A DNA stretch of 37,149 bases, taken from Gemmatimonadota bacterium (GTDB lineage Bacteria; Gemmatimonadota; Gemmatimonadetes; Longimicrobiales; Gaopeijiaceae). Of the stretch, positions 1,428 through 13,317 are shown one piece after another (within the stretch, counting starts at the first letter, position 1; each line of letters opens with the position of its first letter). The position numbers and the translations under genes were made by a program. The stretch is from contig SLBA01000067.1 of the NCBI GenBank assembly GCA_007126575.1, forward strand, positions 1-37,149. The letters run 5' to 3'. The notes below the pieces were generated by a model that worked only from the letters and a program-made list of their open reading frames with translations, ran no database searches and was not told the origin of the DNA.

Positions 1428-2570
1428 GTGAGCCCGACCCTGAAGCGCATCCTTATCGGCGCCGCCATCGTGGTGGCGGCGGGCCTGGCCGTCGTGGCCT
1501 TCATCGGGAGCCCCGGCGAGGAGGGCGTCGAGGCAGGCGGTCCTCCGGGGGGCCCCGGGGGCGGAACGCTCACGGTCGACGCCCACATCGTCGAGCCCGT
1601 GCGCCTGGTCGACGGGACCCTGACCACCGGGTCGCTCCTGGCCAATGAATCGGTCCAGCTCCGCCCCGAGGTCTCCGGGCGCCTCGTCGAGCTCGCCATG
1701 GAGGAGGGGACATCCGTGTCCGCAGGCACCGTCCTGGCTCGGATCAACGACCGTGAACTCCAGGCCCGGCTCCGCGAACTCGAAGCCCGCCGGCGCGTCA
1801 TGGAGCAGCGGGAGTTCCGCCAGGCCCGTCTCCTCGAAGAGGGCGGGGTGAGTGCCGAGGAACTCGAGGAGACCCGCGCGGAGCTCGAGGCCATGGAGGC
1901 CGAAGCCGAGATCCTCCGCACCCAGATCGAGCAGCACACGATCCGCGCCCCCTTCGATGGACGGCTGGGCCTTCGCCAGGTGAGCCCGGGGAGCTACGTC
2001 TCGCCCGAGACCGTCATCGCCACCCTGAGCGAGACGGACCCCATCCGCCTGCAGTTCACCGTCCCGGCCCGCTATGCGGATCGGGTCGGGGAGGGCTCCT
2101 CGGTCCGGTTCCAGGTCGAGGGCTTCGACGAGGAGTTCGAGGCCGTGATCCACGTCATCGACCCGGCGCTCGAGGAGGGCACCCGAACCCTCCGCCTCCG
2201 GGCCCGCACCGCGAACCCCGACGGCCGGCTCCGCGTCGGGTCCTTCGCCGCGGTCGAGGTGATCTTCGAGGAGCTCGAAGAGGCGATCACGGTGCCCTCG
2301 ATCGCCGTCCGGCCGGATCTGGAAGGACCGCAGATCTGGCTCTATCGGGGCGGGGAGGCCGAACGTGTGGGGGTCGAGACCGGAATCCGCACGGCCGCGA
2401 GCGTGCAGATCCTTTCGGGAATCGCGGCCGGAGACACCGTGATCACCACCGGATTCGGGCAGCTTCGCGAGGGTCGGGAGGTCGAGATCGGCGACGTGAC
2501 CGAAGGCCGGGCCCCCGACGAGCCGTCGGGCGACCTCCTGGACGAGGTGATCGCCGAGGAGGGCAGGTGA
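1428..2570 (+). CDS. RND efflux periplasmic adaptor (membrane fusion protein)
   Basis: A 380-residue HlyD/AcrA-type adaptor that would bridge the inner membrane RND pump and the outer membrane channel. Start is GTG at 1428, preceded by GCAGAGG at 1415-1421. Residues 7-27 form a hydrophobic signal anchor without a lipobox cysteine. The split biotinyl-lipoyl domain is visible at about 76-107 and 171-205 (TIRAPFDGRLG), separated by a charged alpha-helical coiled coil at about 108-168 rich in Glu, Arg and Leu. A beta-barrel domain (about 208-280) and a membrane-proximal domain (to about 350) follow. The stop overlaps the GTG start of the pump gene by four bases (GTGA, 2567-2570), indicating translational coupling. 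No regulator gene lies next to the operon. Substrate cannot be told from sequence. Confidence 0.95.
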   Translation: MSPTLKRILIGAAIVVAAGLAVVAFIGSPGEEGVEAGGPPGGPGGGTLTVDAHIVEPVRLVDGTLTTGSLLANESVQLRPEVSGRLVELAMEEGTSVSAGTVLARINDRELQARLRELEARRRVMEQREFRQARLLEEGGVSAEELEETRAELEAMEAEAEILRTQIEQHTIRAPFDGRLGLRQVSPGSYVSPETVIATLSETDPIRLQFTVPARYADRVGEGSSVRFQVEGFDEEFEAVIHVIDPALEEGTRTLRLRARTANPDGRLRVGSFAAVEVIFEELEEAITVPSIAVRPDLEGPQIWLYRGGEAERVGVETGIRTAASVQILSGIAAGDTVITTGFGQLREGREVEIGDVTEGRAPDEPSGDLLDEVIAEEGR

Positions 2571-5500
2571 AGCTCTGGGAGGTCAGCGTTCGGCGGCCGG
2601 TCCTGGCCACGGTGATGTCGCTGGTGATCATCATCTTCGGGGTCATCTCCTTCACCTACCTGGGCGTGCGGGAGTTCCCCTCGACCGACTCCCCCATCAT
2701 CACCGTCCAGACGAACTACCCCGGGGCGAACGCCAACGTCATCGAGAGCCAGATCACCGAGGTCCTGGAAGAGTCGGTGAACGGGGTCGAGGGCATTCGC
2801 TCCCTCGTCTCGACCACCCGCGAGGGCCGGAGCACGATCCAGGTGGAGTTCGCCCTGGACGAGGACCTGGACCGGGCGGCCAACGATGTGCGGGACCGGG
2901 TGAACCGGGTCCTGGGCCAGCTCCCTCCGGACGTGGATCCCCCCCAGGTCTCGAAGGCGGGGGATGACGAAGGCCCCATTGTCTTCCTCAACGTCTACAG
3001 CGACCGCCGCGACCTGCTCGACCTGACCCGGATCGCCGAGGATCTCTTCGCCGAACGGCTTCAGACGATCTCGGGCGTCTCGAGGGTCGATGTATGGGGG
3101 TCCAGGCGATACGCCATGCGACTCCGGCTGGACCCCGGCCGACTCGCGGCCTACCGGCTCTCGCTGAACGAGGTCCGCGCTGCGCTCGATGCCGAGAACG
3201 TCGAGCTGCCCTCGGGGAATCTCGAAGGCGACGACCTGCAGCTCACGATTCGCACCATGACCCGCCTCGAGACCGAAGAGGACTTCAACGACGTCATCCT
3301 CCGTCAGGACGAGACGGGGACGGTGCGCCTGAGAGATGTGGGGCGGGCGGAGCTGGCTGCGCAGAACGAGCGCACGATCCTGAAGCGGGAGGGGATCCCC
3401 ATGGTGGGGGTCGTCATCCGCCCCCTGCCGGGGGCGAACAACGTGGCCATCGCCGACGAATTCTACGAGCGGCTCGAGGGGATCCTGGCCGACGCCCCCG
3501 ACGACATCGAGACCGCCATCGGCTTCGATGTCACGGAGTTCATTCGCGACTCCATTCGCGAGGTCCAGCAGACCGTCCTGATCGCCCTTTTCCTGGTGAT
3601 CATGGTGATCTTCCTCTTCTTGAGGGACTGGCGAACCACCGTGGTCCCCGTCATCACGATCCCGGTGGCGCTGATCGGGGCCTTCTTCATCATGTTCCTG
3701 CTGGGCTTCACGATCAATGTCCTGACCCTGCTGGCCGTGGTGCTGGCCATCGGGATCGTGGTCGACGACGCCATCGTGGTGGTCGAGAACATCTACAAGA
3801 AGATCGAAGCCGGAGAGGACCCCATCGAGGGTTCGATCGACGGGACCCGCGAAATCTTCTTCGCCATCGTGAGCACGACGCTGGCCCTGGTCGCCGTCTT
3901 CCTGCCGATCATCTTCCTGGGTGGGTTGACCGGACAGCTGTTCACCGAGTTCGGGATGACGCTGGCCGGGGCCGTGGTCATCTCGTCCTTCGTGGCTCTC
4001 TCTCTGGCGCCGATGCTCTGCTCGAAGCTCCTGAAGAAGCGCGCGGAGCAGCCCTGGTTCCACCGGAGGACCCAGCCCTTCTTCGACGGTCTCACCGAGG
4101 GGTACCGGACCTCGCTCGACGCCTTCCTGGAGCGCCGCTGGCTCGCCCTCCCCCTGGTTGCCGTCTGTATCGGGCTGGGGCTCTTCCTCTTCCAGCAGCT
4201 CCCCCAGGAGCTGGCCCCCACCGAGGACCGGGGCGGGATGCAGCTGATCGTCTCCGGCCCCGAAGGGGCGACCTTCTCGTACATGGACGAGCGGATGGAC
4301 CGGCTCTCGGCCCTCGTCGAAGAGGAGGTCCCCGAGTATCGGGCAGTCGTCAGTGTGACCTCACCCGGATTCGGCGCGGCCTCGGCAGTGAACTCCGGCT
4401 TCATCCGCCTGGCGCTGGTCGACGCCTCGGAGAGGGATCGATCCCAGCAGGAGATCGCGAGCCACCTTCGCTCCCTCGTCGGGCAGGTCCGGGGCATCGA
4501 GGTCTTCGTGGCCGAGGATCAGACCATCCGTACCGGTGGAGGGGGAGGGCTCCCCGTCCGCTACGTCCTTCAGGCTCCGACCCTCGATGACCTCCGCGAG
4601 GTGATCCCCGCCTTCCTGGATGCCGCCCGGAATCGGGACGAGCTCTCGGGGGTGGATGTCGACCTCACCTTCGACAGCCCCGAGATCCAGCTCCGGGTGG
4701 ACCGCCAACGGGCACGGGACCTCGGGATTGCGACGGCGGACGTCGGGCAGGCGCTCCAGCTGGCCCTCTCGGAGCAGCGGACCGGGTTCTTCGTGATGAA
4801 CGGCCAGCAGTACGACGTGATCACCGAGGTGGATCGGGACTTCCGCCGGGATCCTCGAGACCTGCGATCGCTGTACGTGCGCAGCGGGGGGGGAGAGCCC
4901 ATCCAGCTCGACAACCTGATCTCACTCGAGGAGACGGCGGCTCCGCCCCAGCTCTACCGCTTCGATCGATTCGCCTCGGCCACCATCTCGGCCGGGCTCG
5001 CCGACGGCCGCGTTATCGGCGACGGGATCCGGGCCATGGACGAGATTGCCGACGAACTCCTCGACTCCCGCTTCACCACGAGCCTCACCGGTCCCTCCCG
5101 GGACTTCGTCGAGGGAGGAGAGGGCGTCGCCTTCGTCTTCGTTCTGGCCCTCCTCCTGGTCTTCCTGATCCTGGCGGCCCAGTTCGAGAGCTTCCGCGAT
5201 CCCCTGATCATCATGTTCACCGTCCCACTCGCCCTGGTCGGGGCCCTGGTGGCGCTCGCGGCCTTCGGCCAGACCGTGAACATCTTCAGCCAGATCGGGA
5301 TGATCATGCTGATCGGGCTCGTCACAAAGAACGGGATCCTGATCGTGGAGTTCGCGAACCAGCGCAAGGCCCAGGGGCTGCCGGTCCTCGAGGCGATTCG
5401 TGACGGGGCCGCGGTGCGTTTCCGGCCGGTCCTCATGACCTCCATCTCGACCGCGCTGGGGATCCTTCCCCTGGCGCTGGCGCTGGGGGCCGGGGCCGAG

Positions 5501-6931
5501 AGCCGGATGCCGATGGGGATCGCGGTCATCGGAGGGCTGGCCATCGGCACCATCCTGACTCTATATGTCGTCCCCGCCATGTACTCGTTTCTGAGTGCGC
5601 CCGTCTCGAATGCGACACCCGCCGGGGCCGCGGCCACCGCGCTGGTCGCGGCTCTTCTGATCGCCGCGCCGCTGGGTGCGCAGCAGGCGCCCGCCCTCAC
5701 GCTGGATGAGGCCCTCCGGTCGGCGCTCGAGCGGAATCCCACGCTGGAGCTGGCCCGAAACGAGGTGGCCCGATCCCGGAACCGCGAGGGTCTGGGGGCT
5801 GCTGGGTTCCTCCCCGAGCTCTCAGTTTCGGGCCAGTGGCAGCAGACTGTGGCGAACACGGAGCAGACCTTCCAGGGGCAGGACCCCCAGGTCCTGCGCG
5901 ATGCCCGCACCCGTCAGGGCGGGCTGGCGGCCTCGGCGGACTGGCGCCTCTTTCAGGGGCTGGCCCGCTTCGATGTGCTGCGCCGCCTCGAGGTCGAGTC
6001 GGCCAGCCTCGCCTCGGCTCTGGACGGAGTCACCGAGGACATCCTGGTCTCGGTGATCGCCGGGTATTTCGACCTGGTCCGCCAGGAGCGCCAGGTCGAG
6101 GTCCTGGAACGTGCGGTGGAGCTCTCGGAGGAGCGCCTCCGCCTGGTCCGGGTCCGCGAAGAGGTGGGGTCGGCCTCGGATCTCGAGGTGCGCCAGGCCC
6201 GAGTCGATCGAAACGCGGACCGGGCAGAGGTGTTACGGGCCCGAAGCCAGCTCGCCGAGGCTCGCGCCGACTTCAATCGCATCCTGGGGCGCGCGGCTAC
6301 CGATCCGTTCCGCCTGGTGGACACCCCCGCGGTGGATCCGGATCTTCCCCGCGACGAGCTTCGCACCCGCGCCCTCGAGGCGAGCCCCTACCTGCGGCAG
6401 GCGGAGCAGCGGCTCGAGGTGACCCGGCTCGAAGCGCGCGAGGAGCGAGCCCGACTCTTCCCCACCCTGGATCTGAGCACGGGGCTGGACTGGACGGACC
6501 TGTCGTCGGAGAGCGGCTTTCAGCAGGCCAGCCGGGGATGGCAGTACTCCTTCGGCATCCAGGGCTCCTTCGTCCTCTTCGCCGGATTCGACCGCACCCG
6601 AGACCGTGCCGACGCCCGACTGGCCCGCGAGGCGGCCGCCGTCGAACTGGATGATATCCGGGCCGGGATCGAGGCGGACTTTGAGGTCCAATGGGTGCGC
6701 TACCAGGACCAGCTCGAGCTCGTGGGGCTCGAGACCGAGAACCTCGAGATCGCCCGTCGGAACGTGGACACCGCCCTGGAGCGCTTCCGGCTGGGCGGGA
6801 TCTCGTCGCTGGAGCTGCGTGAGGTGCAGGAGGCCCTGGTTCGGGCCGAGATCCGACTCCTTGAGTCCGAATTCGCCGCCCGCACCGCGCAGGCCGAGCT
6901 GGAACGGCTGGGCGGCCGACTCCTCCCCTGA
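2567..6931 (+). CDS. RND efflux pump fused to a TolC-like outer membrane factor
   Basis: A 1454-residue protein. Residues 1 to about 1010 are a complete HAE1-type RND transporter: TM1 near 10-30, two large periplasmic loops, and the proton-relay residues Asp400-Asp401 in TM4 (VVDDAIVVVENI) and Lys921 in TM10 (GLVTKNGILIVEF), matching AcrB D407/D408/K940. The frame then continues without a stop through an Ala/Leu-rich hydrophobic segment (about 1019-1038, ending PLGA before QQ, a plausible signal peptidase site) into a ~416-residue TolC/OMF domain with its two-fold repeat (TLDEALRSALERNP at about 1044; long helices rich in Glu/Arg/Ala; a second half from about 1260). Normally pump and channel are separate genes. 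Start GTG 2567 overlaps the adaptor stop. Met1005, just before the hydrophobic segment, could act as an internal start for a free OMF. All three parts of a tripartite exporter are thus encoded by two genes. Confidence 0.93.
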   Translation: MKLWEVSVRRPVLATVMSLVIIIFGVISFTYLGVREFPSTDSPIITVQTNYPGANANVIESQITEVLEESVNGVEGIRSLVSTTREGRSTIQVEFALDEDLDRAANDVRDRVNRVLGQLPPDVDPPQVSKAGDDEGPIVFLNVYSDRRDLLDLTRIAEDLFAERLQTISGVSRVDVWGSRRYAMRLRLDPGRLAAYRLSLNEVRAALDAENVELPSGNLEGDDLQLTIRTMTRLETEEDFNDVILRQDETGTVRLRDVGRAELAAQNERTILKREGIPMVGVVIRPLPGANNVAIADEFYERLEGILADAPDDIETAIGFDVTEFIRDSIREVQQTVLIALFLVIMVIFLFLRDWRTTVVPVITIPVALIGAFFIMFLLGFTINVLTLLAVVLAIGIVVDDAIVVVENIYKKIEAGEDPIEGSIDGTREIFFAIVSTTLALVAVFLPIIFLGGLTGQLFTEFGMTLAGAVVISSFVALSLAPMLCSKLLKKRAEQPWFHRRTQPFFDGLTEGYRTSLDAFLERRWLALPLVAVCIGLGLFLFQQLPQELAPTEDRGGMQLIVSGPEGATFSYMDERMDRLSALVEEEVPEYRAVVSVTSPGFGAASAVNSGFIRLALVDASERDRSQQEIASHLRSLVGQVRGIEVFVAEDQTIRTGGGGGLPVRYVLQAPTLDDLREVIPAFLDAARNRDELSGVDVDLTFDSPEIQLRVDRQRARDLGIATADVGQALQLALSEQRTGFFVMNGQQYDVITEVDRDFRRDPRDLRSLYVRSGGGEPIQLDNLISLEETAAPPQLYRFDRFASATISAGLADGRVIGDGIRAMDEIADELLDSRFTTSLTGPSRDFVEGGEGVAFVFVLALLLVFLILAAQFESFRDPLIIMFTVPLALVGALVALAAFGQTVNIFSQIGMIMLIGLVTKNGILIVEFANQRKAQGLPVLEAIRDGAAVRFRPVLMTSISTALGILPLALALGAGAESRMPMGIAVIGGLAIGTILTLYVVPAMYSFLSAPVSNATPAGAAATALVAALLIAAPLGAQQAPALTLDEALRSALERNPTLELARNEVARSRNREGLGAAGFLPELSVSGQWQQTVANTEQTFQGQDPQVLRDARTRQGGLAASADWRLFQGLARFDVLRRLEVESASLASALDGVTEDILVSVIAGYFDLVRQERQVEVLERAVELSEERLRLVRVREEVGSASDLEVRQARVDRNADRAEVLRARSQLAEARADFNRILGRAATDPFRLVDTPAVDPDLPRDELRTRALEASPYLRQAEQRLEVTRLEAREERARLFPTLDLSTGLDWTDLSSESGFQQASRGWQYSFGIQGSFVLFAGFDRTRDRADARLAREAAAVELDDIRAGIEADFEVQWVRYQDQLELVGLETENLEIARRNVDTALERFRLGGISSLELREVQEALVRAEIRLLESEFAARTAQAELERLGGRLLP

Positions 6932-8632
6932 TCAGGCGCCGACACGCCACCCCACGAGTCCCCCGAGGCCCGCCGCCAGTACCATCAGGAGTCCGACCGT
7001 GAACCAGCCGGGGCCGTCCGGTGGGTCCGTGACGAAGGCGGCTGCCGCGTAGCTTCCGTGGGCGCGAGGGTAGTCGTCGATACCGGGACGCCAGCAGCGG
7101 ATGGGAAGGTTCCCGGACCGCAGACTCATCCCCTCGGTCGCGTCGCCGGTCGGCATCCGGATCCCGAAGCGTTCGCGGGTCTCTCTTTCGACGTGCTCGA
7201 CGAGAAACTCGCCGAGGGCCAGAGCGTCGAGGAATCGCCCCTCCGCCGCCTCGGCCAGACGCTGCCGCGCGGCAGGGGCGTCCCCACCATCCAGAAACGC
7301 TCGCACCTCTGCCTCGAGCTCCACCTGGTCGCGGATCGCCCGGGCCTCGAAGGCCTCCAGGCTCCCCGTGACCGGACGCAGAAAGATCTCGGGGTTCTCA
7401 CAGGTGTGGTACAGAAGGCGCTTGTGAACGCGGAAGGCGGAGCGGGTGGCCTCGAGGGGTCCGAAGTCCGGATCCAGAAAGGTGCGGTCCGCCTCCTTGG
7501 TCATGTACCGGTGCTGCCTGTACTCCGGGGGCACATCCTCGGCGCCGATGTGCACGGGAACGAACGGGCTCGCCACCGCGCCGGTGATCGACATCCACAG
7601 AACCCCCAGCTCCGGTGGCACATCACGGCGGAGGTGGGCGACCTGGCCATACCCCGCAGCGTCATCGGACCACCGTGGATCGCGGATGAGCGCGAGCATG
7701 TCCTCGAGGCTCACCGGCGCGAGGCGGGCGATCTCGTCCTCCAGCTCGGGCGGATAGCGAAACCGGGCGTCCGGCCCGACGTCACCCGGCGAACTGGGAA
7801 AGGGCTGACCGTAGACCCGCTGTAGATTCAAGGGCTCCTCCCCATCGGGATCCCACCACCCCTGCTCCACGGCGAACGGGACCAGGTTCTCGGAGGCCAT
7901 GAAATCGGGGTGCTCCCGAGCGTCCACGGGAAAGTCCCCGATGTATCCCGGATACGAGACCCGCACCGCCCCGGGACCCAGTCTCTCCGCCGCCCACAAC
8001 CCCTCGCCACCGGCAAAGTTGATGAAGAGCCACCCCTCCTCCGGATCGGCGAACAGGTGGGAGTTGCCGCCGTAGGTGGCGTAGCCGAACTCGTCGATCA
8101 GGGCCCCGACGATCTCGACCGCCTCGCGCGCGGTGCCGGCGCGCTCCATGGCGATCCGCGAGAGATCGCTGTAATTGAGGCCCCGCTGCGGAATCGGAGT
8201 CCGGTCGCGGAGCTCCTCGCGCGAAGGCGACCAGACATCACGGGCCGCGACGTGCCGCTCGTTCAGCCCTCCGTTCGTGAGTGGAGGCGGAAAGCCCGCG
8301 AACTCCGAGTAGTTCGTGGTGATGAAGCGCAGCGTCCGGGGAACCTGGGGCACCTGGATCCGCTCCCCGGGAATTCGAGCCTCCTCGGTGACCCCGGCGG
8401 CAAAGGTGGCGCCCTCGGTATGAGTCGCGGCAGGCCTGATCTCGATCCAGTGGCTCGAGGGCTCGTGACCGAACCCTCCCAACAGGACCGATCCGTCGGC
8501 CGTGAGATCGCGGCCGACATAGATCGCAATGCTCTTCGAGGGAAGCTGAACATCGCCGGGATCGGGTGCCTGGGCTCCGGCCGGGATCGCCAGGGCGAGA
8601 GTTGCCGCGACGCTCGTCAGCCGCCGGATCAT
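6932..8632 (-). CDS. Peptidase C69/U34-like protein with Ser at the nucleophile position and a C-terminal membrane anchor
   Basis: A 566-residue exported protein of the C69 dipeptidase (U34) family. An N-terminal signal peptide (residues 1-20, ending PAGA) is followed by SIAIYVGRDLTADGSVL. In the family this stretch normally reads C-T-x-I-x-V-G-x-x-A-S-x-D-G-S, and the Cys becomes the N-terminal nucleophile after processing; here Ser34 occupies the Cys position. The family-like NYSDLSRIAMERAGTAREA segment and GGNSHLFAD follow. Near the C-terminus a hydrophobic stretch (about 541-562) ends in WRVGA, predicting a membrane anchor. The ATG overlaps the stop of the upstream gene (ATGA, 8629-8632), so it is translated from the same operon. 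The gene ends flush against the convergent RND-OMF stop. It may be a Ser-nucleophile Ntn hydrolase or an inactive homologue; sequence alone does not decide. Confidence 0.82.
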   Translation of the reverse strand: MIRRLTSVAATLALAIPAGAQAPDPGDVQLPSKSIAIYVGRDLTADGSVLLGGFGHEPSSHWIEIRPAATHTEGATFAAGVTEEARIPGERIQVPQVPRTLRFITTNYSEFAGFPPPLTNGGLNERHVAARDVWSPSREELRDRTPIPQRGLNYSDLSRIAMERAGTAREAVEIVGALIDEFGYATYGGNSHLFADPEEGWLFINFAGGEGLWAAERLGPGAVRVSYPGYIGDFPVDAREHPDFMASENLVPFAVEQGWWDPDGEEPLNLQRVYGQPFPSSPGDVGPDARFRYPPELEDEIARLAPVSLEDMLALIRDPRWSDDAAGYGQVAHLRRDVPPELGVLWMSITGAVASPFVPVHIGAEDVPPEYRQHRYMTKEADRTFLDPDFGPLEATRSAFRVHKRLLYHTCENPEIFLRPVTGSLEAFEARAIRDQVELEAEVRAFLDGGDAPAARQRLAEAAEGRFLDALALGEFLVEHVERETRERFGIRMPTGDATEGMSLRSGNLPIRCWRPGIDDYPRAHGSYAAAAFVTDPPDGPGWFTVGLLMVLAAGLGGLVGWRVGA

Positions 8633-9383: not shown

Positions 9384-11792
9384 TCACCCGTCCAGAAGCG
9401 CCTCCACCCGGGCCAGGGCATCGTCGAGATGGAGCCGGCTCCCGGCGTGCGACGTGCGGCCGACCGCGCTCTCGAGCTCTCCCCTGAGCGCACGAAGCTG
9501 TCCCCGCGCCTGCGGGGCGATGTCGGTGCGAAGGGCCTCATCATCCTCCATCAGGGTGGCGATGCGATCCAGGTAGGCCCGCTGGAGGTTGCGGCGGTAG
9601 GGATCGATGGTCGCACCCGCTTCGATCTCCCGCCAGATCATCCGTCGCGTCGACTCCATCATCACGGAAAGGGGGAACGCCTCGTCCCCCAGCAGGGCCT
9701 CCTGTTCGATTAGACGCTTCATCCGGGGCACCTGAAGGAGGTTGTTGAGCGCGCTCACCTGGAGCTGCCGGATCTGGTCCGGGGTCCCCTCGTTTCGGAT
9801 GCGGAAGAGGATTTCGGGGTCGATCATCCATTCCGGCGTAGTGAAGACCTGTCGGTCGAGGTAGTCCAGGGCCCGCTCCTGTCGCTCCCGCTCGATGACC
9901 GTGTAGGGCCGCTCCGGCTGGCCCTGGGCCCGTCTCGTCCAGTCCACCCCGCCGATGTTGGCCATGACGTGCCCCACGTAGCGACTCCACTGGCCCGCCA
10001 CCTGTCCGTAGAGCTCGGCAAGCTGGGAGTAGTCCCGCCCCTCCTGGTAGGTCCAGTCCCGAAGGTTCTCGACGATGATCTTGAGATTCTCGACGCCGTA
10101 GTCCGACGCCCGCACGGCGTCATCCCCCAGCGCCTCGGTGAGCGATCCGGGGTCGGTCTGGGTGGGATCACCGAAGCGGTAGAGGGGGTCCTCGGCCCGG
10201 GCCACGATCCACTCGTTCAGGGTCTCCCGCTCCTGATCCGGTGTCCTCGCGTCGGGGATCCAGCGATGCCCCCACTCGATCGACCACTTGTCGTAGGGGC
10301 CGACCCGGGGGTAGAAGCAGGTGTCATCACCCGGCTGCGCTACGTAGTTGAAGCGGGCGTAGTCCATGATCGAGGCCGAGGTCCCATTCTCGCAGACCCA
10401 CCGCGTCCGAAGGGAGTCGACCGGAACCCCGGCGTGCCCCTTCATGTTGTGGGGGAGCCCCAGCGTGTGGCCCACCTCGTGAGCCGAGACGAAGCGGATC
10501 AGCTCGCCCATGACCTCGTCATCGAAGGCCACGCCCCGGGCGTCGGGGTTCGCGGCCGCCGCCTGCACGAAGAACCAGTTCCTGAGCAGGTTCATCACAT
10601 TGTGGTGCCACTGGATGTGGGTGCCCAGGATCTCTCCCGTGCGGGGGTCGAAGAACCGCGGACCCGAAGCATTCTGAACCGGAGAGGCCAGGTATCGGAT
10701 GATGTTGATTCGGGCATCTGCCGGATCCCAGTCCGGATCCTCCTCCGGTGACGGAGGCATGCGGGCCACGATGGCGTTGCTGAACCCGGCCGCCTCGTAG
10801 GCCACCTGCCAGTCGTCCACCCCCTTCGCGAGCCACTCCCGCCACTTCTCGGGGGTGGCCGGATCGATGTAGAAGACGATCGGCTCCACCGGATCCACCA
10901 GCTCGCCCCGCAGGTAGGCCGCCGTGTCCGAGGGCACCAGCCGGAAGCGCTGGATGAACCGCCGCTGCTCCAGGCGCTGGGCGTCGGCCCCGAAGTCGTT
11001 GATCTGCGTCGAGAAGTAGCCCACCCGCTCATCCCAGTAGCGGGGCATCATCGGCTCCGCCGGCAGGATCATCAGGGAGTGGCCGAACTCGACCGAGAGG
11101 GTGCCCCCGGCCTGGTTCGAGGGCGGATTGGGGGTCACGTACGTCGCCACCCGCCGCACCTCGAGGTTTTCCGGGAAGGCCCGCATCGACTCGATGAAGG
11201 TGCGGTTGCCGTCGAGGCTCCGGACATCGAACTGCTGCCGTCGCTGCTGCGTGAGCCCGATGATCGGGGCATCCGAAGTAAAAAATCCCGTGACATCCAC
11301 GACCAGGGCATCGGTGTCCGGATTCGTGGCCTTGATGTCCATCGCCTGCAGGACCGGCTCGAAGTTGGAGTTCCGCACCGCCTCGTAGATCGGATCGTCT
11401 GGATCCGCCACGTTCTCGAAAGACACCTGGCGGAGGAGGATCTGGTCCCCGCGGCGCTGGAAGCGGACCACCTCGGTGGTCTGCCGATGTCCCCCGAAGC
11501 CCACCCCCGCAGCCGATCGCGTGATGCGGGTGATCAGGATCATCTCGCGATCCAGGGTCTCGACCGGGATCTCCCAGAGCCAGCTGTCATCCACCTCATG
11601 GACGGTAAAGAGGCCTTCCCTGGAGATCGCCGACTCCGGCACGACTTCAGCGTAGCTCCGCGGGCCATCGGTCGCGGTGGTGCGCTCCGCCGCCTGGGGG
11701 GCCGGCGGCGCCTCGCCGGGTCCTCGAAGACCACATCCGGCAAGGAAGAGAAGGGTGAGGGCGGTCAGAGCCGGAAACAGGCGATGCAGCAT
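9384..11792 (-). CDS. Zinc metzincin lipoprotein, DUF5117/DUF5118 type
   Basis: An 802-residue lipoprotein metallopeptidase. Start ATG at 11792 is chosen because it has GGAGG about nine bases upstream and begins a lipoprotein signal peptide (FLAGC, Cys20); the open frame further upstream to 12407 is antisense to the beta-lactamase-like gene. Residues about 90-400 match the DUF5117/DUF5118 architecture. The zinc site is HEVGHTLGLPH (His438, Glu439, His442, His448), the metzincin HExxHxxGxxH pattern, with the Met-turn SIMDY at Met476. A long C-terminal helical region follows, with an acidic/basic end. It should act on proteins or peptides in the periplasm or at the outer membrane. It is 106 bp after the beta-lactamase-like gene and 44 bp before the beta-barrel gene. 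The catalytic residues look complete. Exact substrate unknown. Confidence 0.92.
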   Translation of the reverse strand: MLHRLFPALTALTLLFLAGCGLRGPGEAPPAPQAAERTTATDGPRSYAEVVPESAISREGLFTVHEVDDSWLWEIPVETLDREMILITRITRSAAGVGFGGHRQTTEVVRFQRRGDQILLRQVSFENVADPDDPIYEAVRNSNFEPVLQAMDIKATNPDTDALVVDVTGFFTSDAPIIGLTQQRRQQFDVRSLDGNRTFIESMRAFPENLEVRRVATYVTPNPPSNQAGGTLSVEFGHSLMILPAEPMMPRYWDERVGYFSTQINDFGADAQRLEQRRFIQRFRLVPSDTAAYLRGELVDPVEPIVFYIDPATPEKWREWLAKGVDDWQVAYEAAGFSNAIVARMPPSPEEDPDWDPADARINIIRYLASPVQNASGPRFFDPRTGEILGTHIQWHHNVMNLLRNWFFVQAAAANPDARGVAFDDEVMGELIRFVSAHEVGHTLGLPHNMKGHAGVPVDSLRTRWVCENGTSASIMDYARFNYVAQPGDDTCFYPRVGPYDKWSIEWGHRWIPDARTPDQERETLNEWIVARAEDPLYRFGDPTQTDPGSLTEALGDDAVRASDYGVENLKIIVENLRDWTYQEGRDYSQLAELYGQVAGQWSRYVGHVMANIGGVDWTRRAQGQPERPYTVIERERQERALDYLDRQVFTTPEWMIDPEILFRIRNEGTPDQIRQLQVSALNNLLQVPRMKRLIEQEALLGDEAFPLSVMMESTRRMIWREIEAGATIDPYRRNLQRAYLDRIATLMEDDEALRTDIAPQARGQLRALRGELESAVGRTSHAGSRLHLDDALARVEALLDG

Positions 11793-11847
11793 GGACAAAA
11801 CCTCCGAAGATCGTCGGGTGCAAGTCGGCGATTGTGTAGACGGGCTC

Positions 11848-11876
11848 AGAGTACACGCGCCGACTCTTCCGGACAA
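11848..11876 (-). promoter_or_regulatory. Possible internal promoter before the metzincin gene
   Basis: In the 106-bp gap upstream of the metzincin start, the minus strand reads TTGTCC (11876-11871), 17 bases, then TACTCT (11853-11848). This matches the sigma-70 -35 in four and the -10 in three of six positions, about 55 bases before the ATG. The rest of the operon is joined by overlaps or a 44-bp gap, so a second promoter here is plausible but weakly supported. Confidence 0.22.
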
Positions 11877-11898
11877 GGAGGTCGTCTCGGTGGTGGGA

Positions 11899-13317
11899 TC
11901 AGAGGATCCGTTCGAAGCGGAAGCCCCGGATCCGGCCCTGGTTGGCGGTGAAGTGGGTGATCCCACCCTCCGCGTCCCGAACGAAGATGACCTCCCCCAG
12001 CGTCGGAGCCTGAAACCGGTCCGGTGCCACCGGTCGAAGGAGCCTGGTCCCCGTCCGAAAGTGGTGCGCCAGGAGCCGCCCCTCATCCACCACCAGATGG
12101 TACGTGGACTCGATCTCGGGACTGCGGAAGACGCCCTCGTACTCGACGAGGGTCTCGGCGCTCGGCGTCCAGGGCTCCGGCGGATCCCCTCCCCCGCGCT
12201 GATTGTCCTGGGCCACCATCGGAGGATCCAGAGCATCCGCCAGGTAGATCTCGGTGATCCGGTTCGCGAGCCCCGCCGGGTTTGCGTCGGCACGGTTCGC
12301 CAGGACGACCACGGCGAAGCGTTCGTCCGGGTGCCGGAAGAGTGCCGTCCGGTAGCCGGCCCAGGACCCGGTATGGGTCCACCGGGTGCTCCCCCTGAAG
12401 CTTCCAAGGCTCTGTCCTCCGGCGTAGGCGATGGTGTCGCCGTCGCTCAGGATTCCCCGCTCGTGCATGCGGTCGAAGACGAGGGCATCCCCCACCACGG
12501 GCTCCTCGAAGTTGAGGATCCAGCGCGCCAGGTCTTCGACCGTGCTGAACAGGGAGCTGGATCCCATCGCGGTGAGCGAATTCACGACGTTGCGATACCC
12601 CGGCTCGCCTCCGGGGGCGAGCCGGTACGAGTCGGCCCGGTCCGCGACGAGCCGGGTGTGGTCATCATGGAAATGGGTCCGGGTCATACCCAGCGGGCCG
12701 AAGATCCGTTCGTCGGTGAAGTCCCGAAAGGACTGCCCGCTCACCCTCGAGACCACTTCGGCGATCAGGTTGTACCCGGTGTTCGAGTAGGTGTACTCGG
12801 TGCCGGGATCGAAATTCAGCTCCTCCTGCTGGAAGGCCATCCGGAGGATCTGTTCGAAAGACATGACATCCTGGTAGTCCCATCCGGCCATGGCCAGCGT
12901 CCCGGGCCAGTCCCGAATCCCGCTCGTGTGATGGACCAGCTGCCGGAGCGTCACGGGACGCCCGAAGTCCGCAAGCTCCGGGATGTACTGGTGAACCGGA
13001 TCGTCCCACCCCACGAGTCCGTCGGACTCGAGGAGCGCCAGGGCGAAGGCCGCGAACTGCTTCGACACCGACGCGATGTCGAAGACCGAGCTGGGCCGGA
13101 TCGGAGCTCCCTGCTCCAGGTTCGCCATCCCATAGCCCCGGGAGTGGACCACGGCGCCGTCCTTCAGGACCAGGACCGCCGCTCCAGGGGTGTCGGGGCG
13201 ATGCCACGCCTCGAAGAGCCGGTCCACCTCGGCGGAGAGCGAGTCGGCCCCATCCTGCGCGACCGCGGATAGCGGAAGGAGCAGGGTCAGAACCAGCGGT
13301 GCCATCAAGAGTCTCAT
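11899..13317 (-). CDS. Serine hydrolase, class C beta-lactamase / PBP4* family
   Basis: A 472-residue exported serine hydrolase (PF00144 family, which includes AmpC, D-aminopeptidases, D,D-peptidases and esterases). Signal peptide residues 1-20 end SAVA. The catalytic set is visible: S83-V-S-K86 (SxxK), Y177-S-N179 (YxN) and H315-T-G317 in place of KTG, the form common in non-lactamase members. A C-terminal domain of about 100 residues (from about 375, starting PWTPSAETLVEYEGVFRSPE) resembles the lipocalin-like DUF3471-type tail seen in D-aminopeptidase and esterase members. ATG 13317 overlaps the stop of the upstream sensor gene (ATGA, 13314-13317). Likely a periplasmic peptidase or esterase acting with the neighbouring peptidases rather than an antibiotic resistance enzyme; that is inference from the motif and context. 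Confidence 0.92.
   Translation of the reverse strand: MRLLMAPLVLTLLLPLSAVAQDGADSLSAEVDRLFEAWHRPDTPGAAVLVLKDGAVVHSRGYGMANLEQGAPIRPSSVFDIASVSKQFAAFALALLESDGLVGWDDPVHQYIPELADFGRPVTLRQLVHHTSGIRDWPGTLAMAGWDYQDVMSFEQILRMAFQQEELNFDPGTEYTYSNTGYNLIAEVVSRVSGQSFRDFTDERIFGPLGMTRTHFHDDHTRLVADRADSYRLAPGGEPGYRNVVNSLTAMGSSSLFSTVEDLARWILNFEEPVVGDALVFDRMHERGILSDGDTIAYAGGQSLGSFRGSTRWTHTGSWAGYRTALFRHPDERFAVVVLANRADANPAGLANRITEIYLADALDPPMVAQDNQRGGGDPPEPWTPSAETLVEYEGVFRSPEIESTYHLVVDEGRLLAHHFRTGTRLLRPVAPDRFQAPTLGEVIFVRDAEGGITHFTANQGRIRGFRFERIL

Follow-up and report, generated by a model that had tools for sequence, protein, structure and literature searches.

In tripartite pumps such as AcrAB-TolC and MdtABC-TolC, the RND pump and the outer membrane channel are the products of separate genes and are separate proteins. 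The C-terminus of RND pumps is cytoplasmic, and the first helix (H1) of the outer membrane factor (OMF) lies beyond the whole pump and the tip of the adaptor. A precedent for two membrane proteins made as one is FbcH, the cytochrome b/c1 polyprotein of Bradyrhizobium, which signal peptidase splits in two at an internal signal sequence. Fusions of RND pumps with OMFs are in themselves already present in public genomes, and the HAE1 fusion described here is a rare variant of the metal-pump fusions; no description of HAE1-OMF fusions or of their processing was found in the open-access literature. What is new is the HAE1 type in Gemmatimonadota together with a conserved signal at the junction between pump and channel.

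The window, a stretch of 37,149 nucleotides from a Gemmatimonadota draft genome of 205 contigs, contains one gene in which the codons of a whole HAE1-type RND pump (residues 5-1009) run on into those of a whole TolC-type channel (residues 1039-1454). The features of the locus are as follows.

1428..2570, + strand: periplasmic adaptor RND_mfp, 380 aa (NCBIfam TIGR01730, E 6e-73)
2567..6931, + strand: RND-OMF fusion gene, 1454 aa (open frame; Pfam ACR_tran and OEP)
2579..5593, + strand: HAE1-type RND pump domain, residues 5-1009 (PF00873 ACR_tran, E 6e-296; NF033617, 1108 bits)
3764..3769, + strand: proton-relay Asp400-Asp401 (alignment to MdtB)
5327..5329, + strand: proton-relay Lys921 (alignment to MdtB)
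5594..5620, + strand: linker that follows TM12 (residues ~1010-1018), without Lys or Arg and expected to be cytoplasmic
5621..5680, + strand: predicted internal signal peptide, retained, or 13th hydrophobic segment; residues 1019-1038, with LGA at the end
5678..5683, + strand: predicted signal peptidase I site A1038↓Q1039 (LGA↓QQ; conforms to the -3/-1 rule and shares A↓Q with other exported proteins encoded in the genome)
5681..6928, + strand: predicted mature channel, a TolC-type outer membrane factor; residues 1039-1454 (two PF02321 repeats; AlphaFold2; PDB matches)

The frame is uninterrupted from its GTG start codon at 2567 to 6931, with ACR_tran followed by OEP and the junction signal retained between them, and the GTG overlaps the adaptor stop codon (TGA, 2568-2570) in the sequence GTGA at 2567-2570. 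These observations agree with the preliminary description of this DNA, which had proposed a single frame running from pump to channel and an adaptor gene translationally coupled to it, and the 1:1 synthesis of pump and channel that it also proposed is likely. Downstream, the fusion gene is convergent with a gene for a peptidase C69-like exported protein (6932-8632, - strand), the two stop codons abutting at 6931/6932, and a Met-zincin metallopeptidase (DUF5117/DUF5118/DUF4953; 9384-12407, - strand) lies farther on, with a lipobox, LAGC, at its N-terminus if read from a start near 11798.

The assignment of the pump to the HAE1 type, also made beforehand, is borne out by the NCBIfam scores, in which the HAE1-like RND_permease_2 model (1108 bits) and TIGR00915 (757 bits) outscore the CusA/CzcA model TIGR00914 of the heavy-metal (HME) pumps (360 bits), with the pump lying below the curated cut-offs of both HAE1 models (1250 bits for RND_permease_2 and 940 bits for TIGR00915). 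MdtB is the closest solved relative of the pump, and the relay residues D400, D401 and K921, which had been read correctly from the sequence, are all in place and aligned with those of MdtB. The substrate class is putatively that of drug or amphiphile export. The channel likewise has all of its parts, as had been claimed for a stretch of ~416 residues: the predicted mature part is 416 aa, two OEP repeats begin at residue 1046 (E 3.4e-51), and residues 1002-1454, modelled with AlphaFold2 (mean pLDDT 89.3), show the full OMF fold. This model matches TolC (best, TM about 0.75), OprM and CusC in the PDB, and the channel is therefore complete.

The join has a sequence suggestive of processing of the long protein into the two usual ones. 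TM12 of the pump ends near residue 1009 and is followed by SAPVSNATPAGAA, the hydrophobic stretch ATALVAALLIAAPLGA and the start of the channel, QQAPALTLDEAL. The hydrophobic core (residues 1019-1037) has a hydropathy of 1.95 over 19 residues and is a helix in the AlphaFold2 model; together with LGA↓QQ it has, as far as sequence can tell, the makings of a channel export signal with a peptidase site. Since the C-terminus of an RND pump is cytoplasmic, a 13th segment at this position would cross outward, like a signal peptide. The same segment is hydrophobic enough for a membrane helix, and it could in principle stay uncut as a 13th membrane helix that tethers the channel in a trimer of single trans-envelope polypeptides. 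Only about 7 residues separate it from the first helix of the channel, however, and in OMFs this helix (H1) belongs to the equatorial domain, halfway along the length of a periplasmic barrel that measures about 100 A (PMC8277102). So few residues would not be expected to span the distance, which makes two chains after cleavage the better reading. An uncut chain would require a geometry unlike that of any known tripartite pump, and it has against it the signal peptidase sites of two kinds that occupy this place in 22/22 fusions (see below); we regard it as very unlikely. A picture in which a single chain, anchored in both membranes, serves as pump and channel at once is thus probably wrong, given the cleavable-looking signal at the join and the few residues available for so long a distance.

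We propose instead that the gene encodes an RND-OMF polyprotein from which cleavage during export yields a pump and a channel of the ordinary kind in a 1:1 ratio, and give this reading, including the predicted cleavage, a probability of roughly three in four. By the expected topology, the 12 segments of the pump part would insert in the inner membrane and its C-terminus would remain in the cytoplasm; the retained signal peptide of the channel would then engage the Sec translocon again, as a 13th segment, and take the channel part to the periplasm. Signal peptidase I would cleave after A1038, leaving the pump with a short extra C-terminal segment, and the freed channel would proceed to the outer membrane, presumably by Bam, and would combine in the usual way with the pump and with the adaptor encoded alongside. 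The effect of the fusion would be a strict 1:1 and spatially linked synthesis of the two proteins. In the window fusion no Lys or Arg precedes the signal core, where the other fusions scored have 3-8, and this may weaken insertion or cutting.

A Gln directly after the signal peptidase I site is found in most of the exported proteins of this genome, with examples in the window and at L190, L193, L195, L196 and L198. Within the window, A↓Q is present in 6/6 clear exported proteins (15623+, 28752+, 20412+, 8632-, 13317- and 9339-), and over about 300 kb [AGS]Q follows the core in 10/30 signal-like N-termini, many of which are membrane proteins or lipoproteins, against 0/30 in a control stretch. 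This Gemmatimonadota genome resembles in this respect the Bacteroidota with their Q-rule, which was reported to be largely specific to Bacteroidetes (PMC5837995); the word Gemmatimonad is absent from the main text of that paper.

Among 116 genomes of the family, only four others have close orthologues (G009, G070, G058 and G016). Separate genes in all close relatives, which the preliminary description would have taken as grounds to reject the fusion, were not found, as one of the four, G009, is fused likewise, with 68% identity over residues 14-1452; both this genome and that of the window are fragmented draft assemblies. In G058, G016 and G070, which have the same gene order, pump and channel (79-82% and 52-56% identical to the fusion, respectively) are encoded by separate genes with a 4-base ATGA overlap of pump stop and channel start, which indicates that the fusion is derived; it would have arisen by loss of this overlap. 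An NTGA overlap is also found in most of the more distant homologues in the class with a readable join, and the pump is unfused in 80/80 relatives from named genomes (Gemmatimonadota, Bacteroidota, Ignavibacteriota, one Desulfobulbaceae and others).

These relatives also bear on whether the fusion is an artifact in which one base missing near 5620-5640 joined two genes. One added base in this GC-rich stretch would allow an ATG at 5610, in another frame, to serve as the start of a channel whose signal peptide would be basic and look normal (MRHPPG..), but the end of the pump would then lie about 100 bases inside the channel gene, where the relatives have 4-base overlaps. None of the single-base changes examined in the join restores such an overlap, and this sole option, with an overlap of about 100 bases unlike that of any relative, makes a single-base error an unlikely cause. 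Moreover, G009 and G218 (see below) are fused too, with linkers that contain neither an ATG start nor an NTGA overlap, and overall we consider a sequencing or assembly error very improbable. Separate translation of the channel from an internal start within the last codons of the pump is quite improbable as well. An in-frame ATG does occur at 5579, 34 codons upstream of the predicted mature N-terminus, but no purine-rich ribosome site lies 5' of it, the resulting signal would be without a basic n-region, the Met is a conserved pump residue that is also present in relatives whose channel starts elsewhere, and the G009 linker contains no start codon.

Another HAE1 fusion is found in G218, from another family of the class, where the contig ends before the channel part of the frame is complete. 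Among 298 genomes sampled from the phylum, 47 matches were obtained at E <= 1e-215, and the fusions among them were those of the window and G218 only. In the pump tree G218 is clearly apart, and one origin with the window is rejected (p-AU 3.6e-28). This rules out a single common origin of all Gemmatimonadota HAE1 fusions and implies at least two. The window and G009 are sisters with support of 71/46, so that shared descent of their fusions is weakly indicated and unproven. Long frames in other genomes of the class (G282, G176, G174, G184, G222, G138 and G275) resemble fusions but are not; they have a GC-rich open frame 5' of ordinary pumps and no C-terminal channel. G018, of the same family, may have a further fusion of a pump with an envelope protein: its 1486-aa RND pump frame (L026:1096-5553) leads into a C-terminal DUF1207 (E 6.6e-40), with the signal-like segment LGLVLLLVFSASFVGEEASG in between.

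The HME RND-OMF fusions of Bacteroidetes mentioned in the preliminary description do exist, being found in 16/49 CusA/CzcA genes in 16 genomes, with frames of 1427-1495 aa. Its expectation that an HAE1 fusion would be less usual held as to rarity, with 3/96 HAE1 genes (those scoring 665 bits or more) fused in 16 comparison genomes, mostly Bacteroidota; it does not extend to uniqueness, as there are three such fusions in Bacteroidota (L184, L185 and L186) and three in Gemmatimonadota. The junction signal is kept in all 22 fusions inspected, HAE1 and HME, from Gemmatimonadota and Bacteroidota. After the hydrophobic core, 19/22 have [A/S/G]↓Q (L213 and L214 among them were read by eye, where the script found no anchor), and the other three, all with NodT-type channels, have a lipobox, which implies signal peptidase II. 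That signals for two different peptidases are kept at the same place argues for selection for cutting, and they would not be expected to persist in a mere linker. The fusion is real and recurrent, with ordinary parts in an uncommon packaging.

If this reading is true, tripartite pumps have repeatedly become polyproteins that are processed by the cell's own signal peptidases, of type I or II, and the locus is a natural example of a pump and its channel being supplied at an enforced 1:1 ratio. Long 'RND transporter' annotations would then conceal a second, separately acting protein, which would affect channel counts and the reading of proteomics data.

Compared with known systems, the locus has tripartite pump parts and relay residues like those of AcrAB-TolC and MdtABC-TolC, from which its packaging sets it apart. 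The CusA/CzcA fusions of Bacteroidota are alike in domain order, size and a retained signal with A↓Q, but theirs are heavy-metal pumps, whereas the pump in the window scores far higher as RND_permease_2 than as CusA/CzcA. The HAE1 RND-NodT fusions of Chitinophaga and Parapedobacter (L184, L185 and L186) likewise combine an HAE1 pump, an OMF and an internal signal, but they belong to the RND_permease_1 subgroup, their channel is a NodT lipoprotein and their internal signal is a lipobox for signal peptidase II. FbcH is similar in having one gene with an internal signal; the proteins are unrelated, however, and both of its products remain at the inner membrane.
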